Source: an uncultured Pelagibacteraceae bacterium
Lineage (GTDB): Bacteria > Pseudomonadota > Alphaproteobacteria > Pelagibacterales > Pelagibacteraceae
Direction: 5' to 3'
NCBI GenBank assembly: GCA_902571375.1
Contig: CACGBP010000001.1
Coordinates: forward strand, 174,501-238,500
Length of the DNA: 64,000 nucleotides
The notes below the pieces were generated by a model, which worked only from the letters and a program-made list of their open reading frames with translations, was not told the DNA's origin and made no database searches. This document shows, piece after piece, positions 33,037 through 42,456 of the stretch; positions within the stretch are counted from its first letter, which is position 1, and each line of letters begins with the position of its first letter. Made by a program: the position numbers and the translations under genes.

Positions 33037-34362
33037 ATGAATGTTTTAAATAGAAATATTAATAATATTTTTTTAATTTTTGCTTTATCTCATTTGATTA
33101 TTTGGACCTTTGTACCATTCTTAACAAATAAAAATTTACCTTTAGATACTATTGAGGCACTTGCATGGGGCAGTAATTTGGATTGGGGTTTTAATAAACA
33201 TCCTCCGATGAGTGCTTTTTTTTCTGAAATTTTTTTTCAAATTTTTGGCCCTCAGGATTGGGCTTATTATTTATTAAGTCAGATTTTTGTTTTAATAGCT
33301 TTTTATTTTGTTTTTAAATTTGCTTGTGAAATTTTAGGAAATGTAAAATTAAGTTTAATTTCTGTCTTGTTATTAGAGTCAATTTATTTTTATAATTTTA
33401 CAACCCCTGAATTTAATGTAAATGTTTGCCAATTACCTTTTTGGTCTCTAGTTATTTTTTATTCATGGAAAATTTATGAAACTAAAGAAATCAAATTTGT
33501 AGATTGTTTTTTAATTGGATTATTTGCTGCCTTAGGTTTTTTATCAAAATATTTATTTATCTATCTATTGGCTTCAATTACATTATTTTTTATTTACTTA
33601 GTATTTGTAAAAAAAACTAAAAAATTTGATTTTAAATATCTAATTACTATTGAAGTATTTATTGTTCTTCTTATCCCGCATTTAATTTGGCTTTTAAATA
33701 ATGAATTTATTACATTAACCTATGGTCTTAAAAGAACTGGTTTAGAGGGGTCAGGTATTATAGACCATTTAAAACATCCAATTATTTTTTTAGGAAAACA
33801 AATAGGAATTTTAATCCCTTTCTTCTTTTTGATTTATTTATTAGTCAAAAAAATTAAAATAAAATTTAATTTAAAAGATAAAAAATTACTATTTTTGATA
33901 TTCATAAATGTTCTTCCAATAGTTTTAATATTATTAACTTCAATAATTACAGGGTCGAAAGTAAGAACAATGTGGATGACGCCCTTTTATTTATTTTTTG
34001 GAGTTTTATTTGTGTATATATTTCAATCTCAAATTAATCCTAAAAAGATTAATTCATTCTTATATGGTTTTTTAATTTTATTTTTCTTGTCACCAATTTT
34101 GTATACATATGAATCTATCAGCAAAACAGATAAAAGAACTGATTATCCTGGTAAAGAAATTGCAGCAAAAGTTCAAATTGCTTGGCAACAGGATTTTAAT
34201 AAAGAAATTGAATTTGTAATAGGAAATGAATGGAAAGCAGGTAATTTATCTTATCATTTAAAATCAAGACCAACATGGGAAGGATTTATTAATGATGAAA
34301 TATTTAGAATTGCCAATGAATATCTTTGTATTGATGATGTTTGTGTAGGAACATATAAATAG
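33037..34362 (+). CDS. Glycosyltransferase family 39-like (ArnT/PMT_2 type) membrane protein
   Basis: Multi-TM; NLPLDTIEALAWGSNLDWGFNKHPPMSAFFSEIFFQIFG with the acidic loop typical of GT-C PMT_2 enzymes. Confidence 0.82.
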   Translation: MNVLNRNINNIFLIFALSHLIIWTFVPFLTNKNLPLDTIEALAWGSNLDWGFNKHPPMSAFFSEIFFQIFGPQDWAYYLLSQIFVLIAFYFVFKFACEILGNVKLSLISVLLLESIYFYNFTTPEFNVNVCQLPFWSLVIFYSWKIYETKEIKFVDCFLIGLFAALGFLSKYLFIYLLASITLFFIYLVFVKKTKKFDFKYLITIEVFIVLLIPHLIWLLNNEFITLTYGLKRTGLEGSGIIDHLKHPIIFLGKQIGILIPFFFLIYLLVKKIKIKFNLKDKKLLFLIFINVLPIVLILLTSIITGSKVRTMWMTPFYLFFGVLFVYIFQSQINPKKINSFLYGFLILFFLSPILYTYESISKTDKRTDYPGKEIAAKVQIAWQQDFNKEIEFVIGNEWKAGNLSYHLKSRPTWEGFINDEIFRIANEYLCIDDVCVGTYK

Positions 34363-34366
34363 ATTA

Positions 34367-35371
34367 ATGAACAATTTTGAGAGCATTACTCAGTTTATAA
34401 ATCAAAGTCCAAAAACAGAATTACATTTACATATTGAGGGAAGTTTGGAACCGGAATTAATGTTTAAGCTTTCTAAGAGGAATAAAATTGAAATTCCTTT
34501 TAAATCTGTAGAGGAAATAAGATCTGCATATAATTTTACAAATTTAGATAGTTTCCTTAAAATTTATTATCAAGGATCTAATGTTTTAATTAATGAGGAA
34601 GATTTTTTTGATTTAACCTGGGAATATATTTTAAGGTGTAAACAAGATAATATAGTTCACACTGAAATATTTTTTGATCCTCAATCACATCTACCAAGAG
34701 GGGTTAGTTTTGACACAGTTATACAAGGTATTCATAAGGCATTACAAAAAGCAAAAGATGAATTTAATATTTCTTCAAAAATTATAATGTGTTTTTTGAG
34801 ACATTTAGATGAAGAATCTTGTTTTGATGTATTGAACCAAGCTTGTAAACATAGAGATAAGATAATTGGAGTAGGATTAGATTCATCTGAAAAAGGTAAT
34901 CCACCATCAAAATTTAAAAGATTATTTGAACAAGCAATTGCAGAAGGTTTTTTAACTGTAGCTCATGCTGGTGAAGAAGGTCCTTCTGAATATATTTGGG
35001 ATAGTTTGAATTTACTCAAAATAAAAAGAGTAGATCATGGAGTTCAATGTTTAAATGATAAGAAATTAGTTGAAAAACTTGTTAAAGACCAAATTCCTCT
35101 AACGGTATGTCCTTTATCAAATGTAAAGTTGTGTGTATTTGATAAACTTGAAAATCATAATTTGAAGAAAATGTTAGATAAAGGTTTAAGAGTAATGGTT
35201 AATTCTGATGATCCTGCTTATTTTGGAGGATATCTAAATAAGAATTTAATTGAAACATCAAAAGCATTAAACCTTGAGTTTTTAGATGTAAAAAAATTAA
35301 TTGAAAATTCTTTCAAATCATCATTTTTAAATGATGAGAATAAAAAAACCTGGTTAAAAAAAATTAATTAA
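34367..35371 (+). CDS. add: Adenosine deaminase family protein
   Basis: KTELHLHIEGSLEPELMFKL, TVAHAGEEGPSEYIWDSL, RVDHGVQC, VNSDDPAYF. Confidence 0.93.
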   Translation: MNNFESITQFINQSPKTELHLHIEGSLEPELMFKLSKRNKIEIPFKSVEEIRSAYNFTNLDSFLKIYYQGSNVLINEEDFFDLTWEYILRCKQDNIVHTEIFFDPQSHLPRGVSFDTVIQGIHKALQKAKDEFNISSKIIMCFLRHLDEESCFDVLNQACKHRDKIIGVGLDSSEKGNPPSKFKRLFEQAIAEGFLTVAHAGEEGPSEYIWDSLNLLKIKRVDHGVQCLNDKKLVEKLVKDQIPLTVCPLSNVKLCVFDKLENHNLKKMLDKGLRVMVNSDDPAYFGGYLNKNLIETSKALNLEFLDVKKLIENSFKSSFLNDENKKTWLKKIN

Positions 35372-36240
35372 TGAAATTTAAAATTCTAATTCCTGCTTAT
35401 AATGACTGGCAATCTGTTTCAGAATTATTAGATAATATTGACCACAATTTATCAGATGTAGATCATGAAATTTCAGTCATTATTGTCAACGATGCCTCTA
35501 ACCATGACAGAAAAGAAGAGGATAAAACTTTTGAAAATATTCATTCAATTAAGATTTTAAATATGAGAATAAACCAAGGTCATGCAAGATGTATTGCTAC
35601 GGGTTTGAAGTATATTTATGAGAAAGAAGAATTCGATTATATTATTCCTATGGACGGTGATGGTGAAGATAGACCTGAGGAAATAAAAGAATTTATAAAC
35701 CAAATTCATAACTCAAATGGCAAGCCTATAGTTGGAAGAAGGATAAAAAGATCTGAAGGTTTATTTTTTAAGATATGTTATGAGTTTCACAAATTAATAA
35801 CTTTAACATTTACGGGAAAATCAATTAAATTTGGAAACTACACTTGCCTTCCAAAAACGACTGTTGAAAAAATGATAAATGAAAAAGCTACTTGGAATAG
35901 TTTTTCAGGTTCATTATCTAAATTAGAGAAAGATTTATTTGAGATACCATCTATTAGAGGAGATAGATATTTTGGACCTTCTAAGATGAGTTTTTTGAAT
36001 TTAATTACACATTCTTTTTCTATGATTAGTGTGTTTAGAAAAACTGTACTATTCCGCTCAGCATTATTTATTATTGTGTATATTTATATGATTAAAAGCA
36101 ATGCATCAGTTCTCACAGCATTACCGTTAATACTTTTGTTGATAATGATTTATTCAATTTCTAATTTAGCTTTAAGAGAAAACATGGACGAATTTGATAA
36201 AGCTTTATCTAATATAAAAAATATAGAGGAAATTAAGTAA
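35371..36240 (+). CDS. Glycosyltransferase family 2
   Basis: ILIPAYNDWQSVSELL, VIIVNDASNHD, DYIIPMDGDGEDRPEEI, C-terminal TM segments. Confidence 0.88.
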   Translation: MKFKILIPAYNDWQSVSELLDNIDHNLSDVDHEISVIIVNDASNHDRKEEDKTFENIHSIKILNMRINQGHARCIATGLKYIYEKEEFDYIIPMDGDGEDRPEEIKEFINQIHNSNGKPIVGRRIKRSEGLFFKICYEFHKLITLTFTGKSIKFGNYTCLPKTTVEKMINEKATWNSFSGSLSKLEKDLFEIPSIRGDRYFGPSKMSFLNLITHSFSMISVFRKTVLFRSALFIIVYIYMIKSNASVLTALPLILLLIMIYSISNLALRENMDEFDKALSNIKNIEEIK

Positions 36241-36346
36241 TTTCTTCTTTTGCAAAATCTTAATAAATGGTAGGCTAGTTTGTTGCGGTAAGTGTGGTTG
36301 TGCTCACTTGTTTAAAAAGGGACAACATAAAAAAGGAGCATAACTT

Positions 36347-37717
36347 ATGAAAAGAATATTAGTAATTATTACTTTAAGCTTATTAACTTCAAGCAATCTA
36401 TTTGCTGATGAGAATTTTAAAATTAATAATTTTAATTTTTGGCTTTATGATAATGGATATCATCAATATTTAAACATTGAAGAAAACCCAGTGTGTAAAG
36501 AAGAACCAAAATATAGTAATCTTTGGTACTATAATAAATGTGATAAATTTCAAGGATCTAACAATTTAAATATTAAAATAAAAAATAAAGCATTATCTGC
36601 TACTAATATTGCCTATCATTCGAACCCAAATAGAGACTCTTTAATTTATTACTTATGGAAATACTCATATAGAGATAGAAGTCAGCATTTAAAAGAATTT
36701 AAACCAACAAATAATTCCTACGATTTTAAATTCAACTTAATTGAAGATAAAATTTTAAAAAAACAAATGAAAACTAAAGGTATCCTTAGTTATTTATATT
36801 ATCAAGATGGTGAAGTGTTGATTGACGAACTTTCTCCGAAAGAAAGATTAGGAGAGTTTTTGAATAATGAAACAAAATTTTATTCAATGTCAATGGGTAA
36901 GTCAGTAACTTCTTATTTAGTAGGCCACGCCATATGTGAAGGTTATATTGATGGAGTTGATGCTAGAGTAAACGACTGGCCTATAATAAAAGATTCACTT
37001 TATCATGATCAAAAATTAATTAATTTTTTAAATATGAATACTGGTGATCAAAAATATATTGATGAATTTAAAGATGGTACAAGCAAATTAGGCGCATATG
37101 AAGATAGGGATATTGAAACAACTATGCGTTTACACTTTAGAAACAAAAATACAAAAAAATCTAAGGAAAGATACAACTACAATGGATTTGTTACTCAGTT
37201 AATTTTAAATTATATGAAATTTAAAGTCGGTGAAGATTATGACAAATTTTATAGCAAAGTTTTCAACGATAAAATAAAGATCAAAAATAGCATTCGTTAT
37301 GGCTATACAAGTTTTAAAGAACATTTTGGAAATGGACATCCCAACATAATGGCAACAAGATTTGATTATCTTAGAATTGGAAAAGCTATAATGGATGATT
37401 ATCAGAATGATACTTGTGTTGGAAAATATTTAAAAGAAATTTATAAAAGAAGAATATCAAAAGGAAGCATAGAAAAAGACGAGCCTTTAGTTGGTCGTAC
37501 TAAATCTTATGGAGGTCAATTCCATATGGATTATCCAGGATTAAAAGATAAGATTATCTTTGGGATGAGTGGTTATGGTGGGAATATGATTTTAATTGAT
37601 GTAGAAAATTCAAGAATACTGGTTCTAAATTCACTTCATTATAACAATACCCAATATAAATATAATCATAAAAAACTAATATTAGATGTATTTAAAAACG
37701 GTAAACAAATAAATTAA
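36347..37717 (+). CDS. Exported serine hydrolase, beta-lactamase / class C (penicillin-binding-like) fold
   Basis: Signal peptide MKRILVIITLSLLTSSNLFADE; SxxK motif MSMGKSVTSYLVGHAICEGYIDGVDARVNDW; YNYNG second motif; GQFHMDYPG...FGMSGYGGNMILID. Confidence 0.75.
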   Translation: MKRILVIITLSLLTSSNLFADENFKINNFNFWLYDNGYHQYLNIEENPVCKEEPKYSNLWYYNKCDKFQGSNNLNIKIKNKALSATNIAYHSNPNRDSLIYYLWKYSYRDRSQHLKEFKPTNNSYDFKFNLIEDKILKKQMKTKGILSYLYYQDGEVLIDELSPKERLGEFLNNETKFYSMSMGKSVTSYLVGHAICEGYIDGVDARVNDWPIIKDSLYHDQKLINFLNMNTGDQKYIDEFKDGTSKLGAYEDRDIETTMRLHFRNKNTKKSKERYNYNGFVTQLILNYMKFKVGEDYDKFYSKVFNDKIKIKNSIRYGYTSFKEHFGNGHPNIMATRFDYLRIGKAIMDDYQNDTCVGKYLKEIYKRRISKGSIEKDEPLVGRTKSYGGQFHMDYPGLKDKIIFGMSGYGGNMILIDVENSRILVLNSLHYNNTQYKYNHKKLILDVFKNGKQIN

Positions 37718-37729
37718 ACATTTAACTCA

Positions 37730-38923
37730 ATGAAAAAATTTTTAATAATTTTTCTATTGTTATTTCATAATTCAAATATTTCTCATGCAGATTTTAAGAA
37801 AATAAAAAAGAAAGCAACAGTTACTCAACCAGAGATTATTTTCCCAATTCAAAAAGATAAAAAAGGGTGCATAAAAGATTTATATGTAAGTCCAGATAAG
37901 AACTATGTTTTACCAGTATTAAAAGTCGAAGCACCCTCTGGATACGGTCTTGATAATAGATTTGATTATGCTTTGAGTAAATTTGAAGATTTTAGTTTTC
38001 CATGTGGTAGTGGAAATGTAGAAGCATGTCAAAATGTAAAAAGAGTTATTTTAGAATGGGCAAAAGCTAACGCTGCCCAAAGAACTGGACCTTCTGATGG
38101 AGAAGGAAGACACTGGAACGATACTTTAACTGTTAATCTTTATATAGCTTCACCAATGATGGCGGCATATTCATTTGCCAAACAAGTTATTGAAGTTACA
38201 GAAGCAGAGGACAAAATTATAAAAGATTGGTTTAAAAAGATTGTCAAAAAAAATAAACATTTAATGTATGAATACTCAAACTATAAACCAGGATCTGGTG
38301 CAGCTGGTACACCTAAAAGAGCACATAATCATGCTTTATCATCCGCAATGAGTCATATGCAATTAGGAATTTTACTAAATGATAATAAGTTATTTAGAAC
38401 TGCTTTTAAAAATTTTGAAGCCGCTATAAAATATCAAAGAAAAGATGGAAGTATGCCTATTGAGACAAGAAGAGGTGGACGGGCAATGTTCTATCAAGCA
38501 AGAGCTATGAATGCATTGGCTGTAATTGCTTTATTAGCTGAAAATCAAGGTTACAATGTTTGGGATTATGAACATAAGGAAAAAAATTATCATAACATTG
38601 TTAAATTTTTTATAGATTTTACTGAAAATAATGAAATTGTTTTTGAATACGCAAAAAGCATGAAACATCCAGGACCTGCAAAAAATTATAAAAAACAAGA
38701 CCTCAATAGTCGATCAAGTAGTAATTGGGGATGGTTATATGCCTATGTTTCAAGATTTCCTGATCATGAAAATGTACAAAGATTAAAAGAATGGTCTCAA
38801 GATAAAAGTAAACTTAATAGTTATCAGTGGGATATAGTTCATCACTATTTAAATATTGGCAACAGACCTTTTGGTTCAGCTTCTTGGACGGTAGTTGAAG
38901 CCAACTGTCACTTTACAAGATAA
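37730..38923 (+). CDS. Exported alginate-lyase-like protein (PL5-like alpha/alpha toroid)
   Basis: Signal peptide; RAHNHALSSAMSHMQLGILLND and DGSMPIETRRGGRAMFYQARAMNALAVIALLAENQGYNVWDY, resembling PF05426/PL5 alginate lyase. Confidence 0.7.
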   Translation: MKKFLIIFLLLFHNSNISHADFKKIKKKATVTQPEIIFPIQKDKKGCIKDLYVSPDKNYVLPVLKVEAPSGYGLDNRFDYALSKFEDFSFPCGSGNVEACQNVKRVILEWAKANAAQRTGPSDGEGRHWNDTLTVNLYIASPMMAAYSFAKQVIEVTEAEDKIIKDWFKKIVKKNKHLMYEYSNYKPGSGAAGTPKRAHNHALSSAMSHMQLGILLNDNKLFRTAFKNFEAAIKYQRKDGSMPIETRRGGRAMFYQARAMNALAVIALLAENQGYNVWDYEHKEKNYHNIVKFFIDFTENNEIVFEYAKSMKHPGPAKNYKKQDLNSRSSSNWGWLYAYVSRFPDHENVQRLKEWSQDKSKLNSYQWDIVHHYLNIGNRPFGSASWTVVEANCHFTR

Positions 38924-38926
38924 TTT

Positions 38927-39934
38927 ATGAAAAGATTGTTTATATTTTTAATTTCATTTTTTATTTTTACAAATATTGCAAGTTCGGAATCAAGATTTGG
39001 AGAATTGACAGAAATGCGTGATAAAAAAATGCGTGGTAAAGAAGGTCAATGGGTTAGACCTCATCCTGGTCCTTTTGTTTGGAATAAAATTGAGAATGAA
39101 AAAGGAAAATTTTCTTGGGAAGAAGTGGACAAAAATGTTCTTTATGCCCAAGAACATAATCAGACAATATTAGCAACCATCTGGCCTCACGCAGATTGGG
39201 AACAGAAATCTTGCAAAAGAAAGAAAGTGAGAAGTCCTTTCGGCAAAGGTTTTACAAAGTATTTAAGTAAACCTTGTTCAATGGAAGATTATAAAACTTT
39301 TCTTTTAAAATTAGTGGATCGTTATGATGGTGATGGTTCTAATGATATGCCAGGATTAACTAAACCTATCAAATATTGGGACATAATGAATGAACCTGAG
39401 TTTGATATGTTTTTTAGAGGAAGCCAGGAAGACTTTGTTGAAATTTTTAATTTCTCATCAAAAATAATTAAAGAAAAACAAAAAGATGCAGTAATTGTTA
39501 TGGCTGGAGCCGCAGGAATGTTTCCAGAAAATAAAAAATATTGGAAATCAGTTTTACCAAAAATTAGAGATCATTTTGATATTGCAAACATTCACCACAT
39601 AAGCGGACCAGATGGACAATGTGATAGGGAACTATGGGTTGATGAGTTTGCAGCTTTATTAAAAAGTGTAAATGTTGATAAGCCTATTTGGGTAACAGAA
39701 GCTATGACTTGTGGTTCACCTGTAAAAGCTTGGGTGAAGGCATTTGTAAATGGAGCTGAATTGATTATTGATGTTGGTGTAAATGCTCCAGGTCCAAAAA
39801 TGAGTAAAAAAGGTAGAAAACAATTAAATGAGTTTATTAATGAATATGATGGTTTTACATCTATAAAAAGTATTTCAAAAAAACAAGTGGAATTTACTTA
39901 TAAAGACGGTTCCAAAAAAATTTTAGAATTTTAA
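38927..39934 (+). CDS. Exported glycoside-hydrolase-like TIM barrel (clan GH-A type)
   Basis: Signal peptide; GPFVWNKIENEKGKFSWEEVDKNVLYAQEHNQTILATIWP, acid/base motif YWDIMNEPEFD, nucleophile-like PIWVTEAM. Confidence 0.72.
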   Translation: MKRLFIFLISFFIFTNIASSESRFGELTEMRDKKMRGKEGQWVRPHPGPFVWNKIENEKGKFSWEEVDKNVLYAQEHNQTILATIWPHADWEQKSCKRKKVRSPFGKGFTKYLSKPCSMEDYKTFLLKLVDRYDGDGSNDMPGLTKPIKYWDIMNEPEFDMFFRGSQEDFVEIFNFSSKIIKEKQKDAVIVMAGAAGMFPENKKYWKSVLPKIRDHFDIANIHHISGPDGQCDRELWVDEFAALLKSVNVDKPIWVTEAMTCGSPVKAWVKAFVNGAELIIDVGVNAPGPKMSKKGRKQLNEFINEYDGFTSIKSISKKQVEFTYKDGSKKILEF

Positions 39935-39935
39935 T

Positions 39936-41177
39936 ATGAAAAAAATTTTTATTCTAATTTTAATTTTTTTTACCAACAATGTATTTGCAAACCAAGAAGA
40001 GATTAAAAAAATGGTATTTAAAAGTGAAAGTTATAATCTTGGCTTAAATAAAAAAGATACCACTATTCAAGGAATAAAACTTAAACCAATTACAAGAACT
40101 GATGCTTTTAAACATTCTGTCAAAAAAAAATACGGTTGGACAAAATATGGAATTAAAATTGTTAATTCTTCTGAAGGAATGCCGATTAGACATGGTGACA
40201 CTGCAATAAGATTTGAACTTCGTTATGATGATTGTGGTTTTTTGTATAAAAATGGCAAAGAGAGAGATTGCATTAGATCAACACCCCATCACCGAGTCGA
40301 AATAGGACAAGGTCATAATAAAGATATTAGTTTAGGATTTAAACACAAACAGGATTATTGGTATACCGCTTCCTTCTACTTTCCAAAAGAACATAAATTT
40401 TATCGAAAACAATCTGTATTTCAATTTCACTCAAGTGAAGGACCCTATCATCCTCCATTCCATTTAGAAATCTTTCCTAAAGAAGGATTGATAGCTTCAA
40501 TAAGCACATCAGAGGGAGTTTATGCAGATAAAGAAAATGCTTGTGGGGGAAGCGTTAAACAAACAATAAATTATTGTGAGAAAGTTAAACTTGAATATTT
40601 AGTTATGAGTCCTGATGAACTAGAGGATAGTTTAGGTAAATGGACTGATTTAGTAATTCATGCGATTTGGGATAAACGTGCCTCAGATCATGAAAAAAAT
40701 AAGGGTATGATCGAAGTATTCATTAATGGAAAAAAAAAATTACATTATGAAGGTCAATCTATGTGGAATATTGGTTTAGCAGTAATGCAGCTGGGTATTT
40801 ATCAAAGCAAAGAAGCAAAAACCTTTAAAGGAAAAACTCCCTCATTACAGGAGATGAGAGACACTCCAACTATCATGTTTTATGATGAAATATGGGCCAA
40901 AAAGAAGTGCAAAGATCTTCTGTTAAATCGTTTAGGTTATTCTTGTGAAAGCTTGGAAAATCAATCTGATGATATTACTAAGCCTTATTACGTAGATAGA
41001 GTTTCACAACAGGAATATATTGTAATTGTAAAGAATAAAATTGATAAAAATATTTTAATCAAATTAAGAGGTTTTGATAAAAAGAGTTTAGTCAAAAAAG
41101 CTATGGAAGAGTGTGCTAATAAAAATAAAGATGGATGTTATGTTCATTATTCAAGTATGCTTGCCATTGGTCAATAA
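39936..41177 (+). CDS. Exported polysaccharide-lyase-like jelly-roll protein (PL13/PL20, heparin-lyase-I-like)
   Basis: Signal peptide; GDTAIRFELRYDDCG..., RSTPHHRVEIGQG, YWYTASFYFPKEHKF...QSVFQFHSSEGPYHPPFHLEIF, KWTDLVIHAIWDKRASDH..GMIEVFINGKK. Confidence 0.65.
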   Translation: MKKIFILILIFFTNNVFANQEEIKKMVFKSESYNLGLNKKDTTIQGIKLKPITRTDAFKHSVKKKYGWTKYGIKIVNSSEGMPIRHGDTAIRFELRYDDCGFLYKNGKERDCIRSTPHHRVEIGQGHNKDISLGFKHKQDYWYTASFYFPKEHKFYRKQSVFQFHSSEGPYHPPFHLEIFPKEGLIASISTSEGVYADKENACGGSVKQTINYCEKVKLEYLVMSPDELEDSLGKWTDLVIHAIWDKRASDHEKNKGMIEVFINGKKKLHYEGQSMWNIGLAVMQLGIYQSKEAKTFKGKTPSLQEMRDTPTIMFYDEIWAKKKCKDLLLNRLGYSCESLENQSDDITKPYYVDRVSQQEYIVIVKNKIDKNILIKLRGFDKKSLVKKAMEECANKNKDGCYVHYSSMLAIGQ

Positions 41178-41178
41178 A

Positions 41179-42456
41179 TTAAGTTCTAATCGTAGGCAAA
41201 CAATAAAAATCAGCAGTATCTATTTTGGAAGAGTATTGTCTTCTCATATTCCATTTTTTATGAACACCTGCACTTGCAAGACTTAAAGTAGATCTTCCAT
41301 ATCTATAATTAGTATTATCAATTGATCGCATTAAACTTTTTATTTTTTCATCTTTTTCCGATGAAAATAAATTTTTCCTACCATCATCGTTACGCAATCC
41401 TGTAAGCATGACACCCGCTTTTTGATAATGATAACCATTTTTAAATATACTTTCTAAAATTGAAACTGCTGTTTTAACGGTTTCAATACTATTGTTTGTT
41501 GCAATTGGAAAATCAACTGTCTTTGCATTTGAATAATATCCAAAATCTCTTTGAAAAGGACTAGTTCTAACAAATACAGTAATTGCTTTTGCAACTAAAG
41601 ACTCTGATCTAATCTTTTCAGATGCATTTAGACAATAGTTTGCAACTGCTTCTTTAAGTTCTTGAAAACTTTCAATTCTTTTTCCAAATGATCTTGAAAC
41701 TACACAACTTTTTCTTTTGGTTTGTGCTGTTTCTAAATTGATACAAGGAATACCTCTAAGTTCCATTGCAGTTCTTGAACTTAAAACATTAGAACATTTT
41801 TTAATCCATGTGTTAGATTTATTCTTAAGTTGTTTAGCATTATAAATTCCATTTTTTTGATAAAATTTTGTCAACTGTCTACCAACACCCCATACATCAT
41901 TAATTTCGACTTTTTCCAAAATTGGATCTAGATTTTCTATACCAATTAAACTGACAACACCTGATTGTTTTTTCTTTGCAATATGATTTGCAATTTTGCT
42001 TAAAGTTTTTGTTTTAGCAATACCAATACTAGTTGGAATACCTGTCCATTGTAAAACTGTTTCTCTAATTTCTCTTCCAACTTTTTCAACTTCAAAGTCT
42101 GGAAAATTAGATAAATCTATAAATGCTTCATCAATTGAGTATACTTCTATTTCTGTATTAAATCTTTTAAGAGTTCTCATTACTCTTCTAGATAAATCTC
42201 CATATAAAGAATAATTTGATGAAAAGACTTCAACTTTGTTTTTAAGAATAATATCTTTTGCTTTAAAATAAGGTTCACCCATTTTAATTCCCAGAGCTTT
42301 TGCTTCATTAGATCTAGAAATAATACAACCATCATTATTGGATAAAACTACAACAGGTTTTTTTCTTATTCTTGGATTGAATAATCTTTCACAAGAAACA
42401 TAAAAAGAATTACAATCAACTAAAGCTAATTTTTTAGTACGTTGAATGGATGACAT
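41179..42456 (-). CDS. umuC: Y-family DNA polymerase V subunit UmuC
   Basis: ALVDCNSFYVSCERLFNP, VVVLSNNDGCIISRSNEAKALGIKMGEPYF, EVYSIDEAFIDL. Confidence 0.96.
   Translation of the reverse strand: MSSIQRTKKLALVDCNSFYVSCERLFNPRIRKKPVVVLSNNDGCIISRSNEAKALGIKMGEPYFKAKDIILKNKVEVFSSNYSLYGDLSRRVMRTLKRFNTEIEVYSIDEAFIDLSNFPDFEVEKVGREIRETVLQWTGIPTSIGIAKTKTLSKIANHIAKKKQSGVVSLIGIENLDPILEKVEINDVWGVGRQLTKFYQKNGIYNAKQLKNKSNTWIKKCSNVLSSRTAMELRGIPCINLETAQTKRKSCVVSRSFGKRIESFQELKEAVANYCLNASEKIRSESLVAKAITVFVRTSPFQRDFGYYSNAKTVDFPIATNNSIETVKTAVSILESIFKNGYHYQKAGVMLTGLRNDDGRKNLFSSEKDEKIKSLMRSIDNTNYRYGRSTLSLASAGVHKKWNMRRQYSSKIDTADFYCLPTIRT

Follow-up and report, generated by a model that had tools for sequence, protein, structure and literature searches.

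The four predicted exported enzyme genes at positions 36,347 to 41,177 of the window represent one of many contents of a gene-exchange hot spot in Pelagibacter, located where the core gene GT2 and umuC meet 3′ to 3′. The window is the whole stretch of 64,000 nucleotides analyzed (contig 1, positions 174501-238500), from a genome of 1.01 Mb that is 86% complete in 24 contigs. This genome size and the window's relatives, 69 Pelagibacteraceae single-cell genomes, bear out the SAR11-like origin proposed in an earlier sequence-only reading. We give an even chance to the explanation that the hot spot is filled with exchangeable exported enzymes whose periplasmic targets would be small acidic oligosaccharides. 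The region contains the following features.

33037..34362, + strand: PMT_2 (GT-C, ArnT-like) glycosyltransferase, core gene of the upstream flank (PF13231, 2.2e-27)
34367..35371, + strand: adenosine deaminase between PMT and GT2 (PF00962, 5.7e-91)
35371..36240, + strand: GT2 glycosyltransferase, weakly ArnC-like, left island boundary (PF00535, 5e-13)
36241..36346, + strand: leader of 106 nt from GT2 to the first cargo gene (from coordinates)
36347-37717, + strand: SH, predicted exported serine hydrolase, 456 aa (ORF list)
37730-38923, + strand: PL5, alginate-lyase-like enzyme, 397 aa (ORF list)
38927-39934, + strand: GHA, clan-A-like glycosidase, 335 aa (ORF list)
39936-41177, + strand: PL20-like lyase, 413 aa (ORF list)
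41013..41165, + strand: DUF4189-like C-terminal tail of the PL20-like protein, residues 360-410 (profile search of ORFs)
41179..42456, − strand: UmuC, convergent right island boundary, 1 nt from the PL20 stop

The ORF list agreed exactly with the four exported plus-strand genes described earlier, including the gaps of 12, 3, and 1 nt in the order SH-PL5-GHA-PL20. All four N-termini resembled signal peptides: each began with K/R residues and had a hydrophobic segment. Export was called here and below by a simple hydrophobicity rule rather than SignalP, and this rule misses Tat signals. Values of dN/dS against homologues were 0.06–0.25 for the four genes, indicating purifying selection, and we therefore consider the ORFs to be real genes.

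GT2 (+) and UmuC (−) were convergent neighbors across the genus. We located UmuC in 224/248 genomes of the order and read the adjoining region in 139. The site was found in 134 Pelagibacter genomes including the window, and was empty in 22, occupied in 111, and cut off by the contig in one. GT2 was the left anchor of 128 complete islands, and almost every Pelagibacter genome had PMT together with GT2. At six empty sites the GT2 and UmuC stop codons overlapped by 8 nt, and filled islands extended to more than 18 kb. Conserved flanks, variable content, and empty sites, which define a flexible island, were all present. The PMT-GT2 junction was variable too, as only a few other genomes had an adenosine deaminase there.

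At least one of the SH, PL5, GHA, and PL20 families occupied the site in 75/134 genomes, in shuffled combinations, and the SH-PL5-GHA-PL20 order was unique to the window. The sequence-only reading had treated the four genes as a functional unit and suggested a test of their co-occurrence across SAR11 genomes. Subsets did occur together elsewhere, but with the full set in 1/134 genomes and weak pairwise co-occurrence we rejected a fixed four-gene operon. The most common island contents were a PL20-like gene alone (14 genomes), PEP carboxylase (PEPC) with PL5 (12), PEPC alone (11), and PL5 alone (9), and an ammonium transporter-SpoIIE content was found in five. Other cargo included urease genes, a TRAP transporter with a sulfatase, DUF1800/DUF1501, FG-GAP proteins, and an exported amidohydrolase. 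By the hydrophobicity rule 150/435 island genes were exported, versus 3/47 genes elsewhere in the window.

Several cargo types had features of their own. The ammonium transporter was fused to a SpoIIE-type phosphatase domain in L183, L184, L190, L191, and L193 (e.g. L193:16354-18501). UreD, UreC, UreF, and UreG were present at the GT2-umuC site in 19 genomes (islands of L150-L182), often beside lyases. The DUF1800/DUF1501 pair was the most common first cargo in one lineage (islands of L149-L181), and the DUF1501 signal was Tat-like.

Genomes with ~97% DNA identity in the flanking genes differed in island contents. PL5 shared 94% DNA identity between L141 and L147 over flanks of 72–88%, and 74% identity between L113 and L131 over flanks of 91–96%. 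The PL5 similarities conflict with those of the flanks, and these genes have therefore been exchanged. Cells gain, lose, and swap cargo genes at this site, probably via homologous recombination in the conserved flanks. A site-specific element was rejected, as the cassette repeats were weak and AT-rich and no integrase or transposase was among the annotated island families. A phage origin was also rejected, since viral contigs had no GHA or PL5 homologues and their PF14099 matches were remote (22–37%). Spacing between cargo genes was often −4 to +12 nt, and in L105 and L136 the first cargo gene begins inside the GT2 stop codon. This arrangement is consistent with cargo that lacks promoters of its own and is probably expressed by read-through from the core PMT-GT2 operon; in the window itself, the 106-nt leader precedes the first cargo gene. 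The number of promoter-like sites in the region (45 vs 39 in shuffles) was not informative about a cassette-specific promoter.

The family assignments made from the letters alone were sustained for all four proteins, and active-site residues were conserved in each. Profile searches were divided: PF05426 and PF14099 matched above their cut-offs, while PF00144 gave no match and GH10 remained below its threshold.

PL5 matched PF05426 at 1.2e-31 (110.7 bits vs a gathering cut-off of 22.2) and the A1-III alginate lyase among PDB sequences at 3.7e-9. Residues aligned to A1-III were strongly conserved in homologues (N200 68/68, H201 63/68, R248 68/68, Y255 66/68), and we take the Asn/His, Arg, and Tyr to have the catalytic roles generally known for such lyases. 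By profile and catalytic residues, PL5 is a predicted PL5-type lyase. It shares PF05426 and the catalytic Asn-His, Arg, and Tyr with the PL5 alginate lyases A1-III, AlgL, and Smlt1473, but has no alginate synthesis or utilization genes around it, and some of its SAR11 relatives have a DUF4189-like tail or a Lys in place of the His. The Lys substitution marks a distant PL5-like subgroup (L152:1429-2667, L162:10032-11270) in which activity may differ.

The PL20-like protein matched PF14099 at 2.7e-20 (73.6 bits vs a gathering cut-off of 29.9) and had no match to any solved structure among PDB sequences. R85, R120-x-E122, Q163-x-H165, Y289, and D317-E318 were invariant in 25 homologues at 26–94% identity. 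The R-x-E, Q-x-H, and Tyr presumably have the active-site roles they have in jelly-roll lyases generally. We classify the protein, from its profile and these residues, as a putative PF14099 jelly-roll lyase of the PL13/PL20 group. The jelly-roll profile, R-x-E, Q-x-H, and late Tyr are shared with PL13 heparinase I and PL20 glucuronan lyase, whereas the SAR11 proteins differ in having a tail domain and up to six copies per genome. Of 121 Pelagibacter genomes, 51 encoded PF14099 proteins, one genome having as many as six, and the copies were spread over several contigs. Tail residues 360-410 matched the C-termini of PL5-like enzymes in L041, L045, L062, and L089, and those of a second PF14099 subgroup. 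The DUF4189 match in three tailed PL5-like relatives was weak (1e-3 to 1e-2, below the Pfam cut-off). Because the two lyase folds are unrelated, their common tail may point to a role that both share, such as binding the same partner or glycan type.

SH had no Pfam family at E ≤ 0.1, PF00144 (Beta-lactamase) included. Its AlphaFold2 model (pLDDT 79.4, pTM 0.85) matched PIB-1 (4.9e-13), as well as 6-aminohexanoate-dimer hydrolase, DltE, and FmtA, in Foldseek, and S182-x-x-K185 and Y278 were invariant among homologues. The predicted fold, S-x-x-K, and catalytic Tyr identify SH as a putative serine beta-lactamase-fold (class C-like) hydrolase. These three features are held in common with PIB-1, 6-aminohexanoate-dimer hydrolase, and DltE, from which SH differs in its ~13–18% identity, additional N-terminal part, and lack of a Pfam match.

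GHA was above the cut-off in no Pfam family and was marginal to GH10 (PF00331; 14.1 bits vs a cut-off of 22.1). N155-E156-P157 and E258, which include the catalytic Glu of the MNEPEFD and VTEAM motifs noted earlier, were invariant in 28 homologues. Foldseek matched the AlphaFold2 model (pLDDT 75.5, pTM 0.80) to clan-A TIM barrels, the best being 5z3k (4.9e-9), followed by GH10, GH5, GH30, GH39, and GH44 structures. On this moderate-confidence model, GHA is a predicted clan-A-like TIM barrel in which the acid/base Glu follows strand 4 and the nucleophile Glu follows strand 7. The barrel, NEP acid/base, and late Glu nucleophile are those of clan A (GH10, GH39/PslG, GH5, GH30), but GHA fell under every Pfam cut-off and its strong homologues here were in SAR11 only. 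Among 349 Pseudomonadota genomes, the only strong match was in the SAR11 genome, and three others were partial, near 1e-6.

GHA was not confined to the island: in L086, L088, L090, L094, and L098 it lay inside or next to a Liv-type ABC operon and, in L091, adjoining an 815-aa exported partner with a TRAP transporter nearby. In L088:30-2990, L090:3548-6509, and L086:6127-11418, GHA and other exported genes lay between Liv-type branched-chain ABC permease genes, often with abutting or overlapping start and stop codons, making this operon a second insertion site. In many genomes the gene immediately preceding GHA encoded an exported protein of ~815 aa with no Pfam match, which suggests that the two are a functional pair. 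Examples of this pair are listed below.

L041:5493-9005: ~815-aa protein and GHA
L043:5463-9014: ~815-aa protein and GHA
L052:5596-8999: ~815-aa protein and GHA
L091:5482-8969: ~815-aa protein and GHA
L093:5512-9008: ~815-aa protein and GHA

The absence of SusCD and TonB-dependent transporters noted for the window was genome-wide in the 8/8 genomes tested. No TonB receptor (PF00593), KDPG aldolase, or KduI was found in these eight genomes, and all eight contained TRAP binding proteins. KDPG aldolase and KduI belong to the standard route for unsaturated uronates, so this route is missing, and without a TonB receptor as well the cassette is not an ordinary polysaccharide-utilization locus.

Periplasmic scavenging of oligo-uronates is our preferred reading, held with moderate confidence and predicted from folds and context. 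Each gene would be an exchangeable exported hydrolase or lyase expressed by PMT-GT2 read-through. Small acidic oligosaccharides would reach the periplasm through porins, where SH may take off ester groups, PL5 and PL20 would cut uronate linkages by beta-elimination, and GHA would free sugars for import by general TRAP/ABC transporters. We favor scavenging because other cargo at the site consists of nutrient genes, namely urease, Amt, and TRAP with a sulfatase, and GHA elsewhere lies in or near transporter operons. Against it, the standard uronate route is missing, the cassette in the window contains no transporter, and GHA may have come to lie in transporter operons simply by insertion rather than for a functional reason. 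In a bolder version, which we consider less likely than not, Pelagibacter populations would hold a combinatorial pool of predicted periplasmic polyuronate enzymes. These would be interchangeable catalytic cores, some with the common C-terminal tail, docked without promoters at operon ends, and SAR11 would collectively process acidic glycans without TonB by a non-canonical uronate pathway.

The strongest rival, which we consider rather unlikely, is that the enzymes work on a glycan that the cell itself makes and exports, such as a hypervariable LPS O-chain, by trimming, releasing, or clearing it, and that they differ by glycotype. AlgL acts in this way in alginate synthesis and PslG in Psl synthesis. 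The cassettes are always downstream of the PMT_2/GT2 pair that weakly resembles ArnT/ArnC, a weak GHA relative elsewhere adjoins a gene that looks, by eye, like a Wza-type export protein, and neither canonical uronate catabolism nor a TonB receptor is present. SAR11 O-chain clusters are also strongly variable (PMC11898729). However, the known O-chain cluster is at another place, the same enzyme families occur at other sites as well, and cargo such as urease, Amt, and PEPC has no glycan role. The AlgL-like linkage of lyases to glycan synthesis genes was not seen at this site, as PMT and GT2 flank empty and filled islands alike. This weakens the earlier proposal, in which the upstream glycosyltransferases would build a glycan and the lyases would trim it, and we disfavor a dedicated clearing role because these glycosyltransferases are present with or without lyases.

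It is improbable that the enzymes serve protection or competition by degrading the glycans of phage receptors, gels, or neighbors rather than in feeding; rapid turnover and paralogue arrays are consistent with such a role, but neither a secretion system nor a surface anchor was seen beside the genes, and there were no close viral homologues. Least probable of all is that the four enzymes make up an invariable pathway for a single glycan and were acquired as a unit. The tight spacing, the subsets found elsewhere, and a GHA and SH co-occurrence slightly above chance (uncorrected p = 0.024) would point to this, but the full set is confined to one genome, the commonest state is PL5 or PL20 as the sole exported gene, and no gene pair was significant once corrected for six tests.

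SAR11, the most abundant bacteria of the ocean, are usually portrayed as specialists that live on small dissolved compounds. The preferred reading of oligo-uronate scavenging suggests that many SAR11 cells handle acidic sugar chains. With exported lyase-like enzymes in 51/121 sampled Pelagibacter genomes, swapped at a fixed site, acidic-sugar turnover by SAR11 becomes testable, and close relatives that differ in whether this site is empty or filled provide a clean natural experiment. We found no report of the GT2-umuC site, its cargo, or these lyase families in SAR11 in a literature search with partial coverage of journals.

Like polysaccharide utilization loci, the SAR11 cassette groups several exported carbohydrate-active enzymes in a cluster, but it differs from them in having no SusC/D, TonB receptor, or dedicated sugar catabolism genes. 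A metagenome study listed PL12 and GH5 for Pelagibacter (PMC10322874). SAR11 islands already described include the four hypervariable regions HVR1-4, at loci other than GT2-umuC (PMC2217521), phosphate/phosphonate and purine islands (PMC7318151), and a glycine betaine island (PMC12421898), and a 2025 study placed habitat genes mostly outside islands (PMC12636525). The GT2-umuC site is like the known flexible islands in its fixed position, variable cargo, nutritional genes, and lack of obvious transfer genes, and it likewise probably spreads by homologous recombination. It lies elsewhere than HVR1-4, near recA (SAR11_0641), and is distinguished from the known SAR11 islands by a cargo of which roughly one third looks exported, including many lyases and hydrolases.
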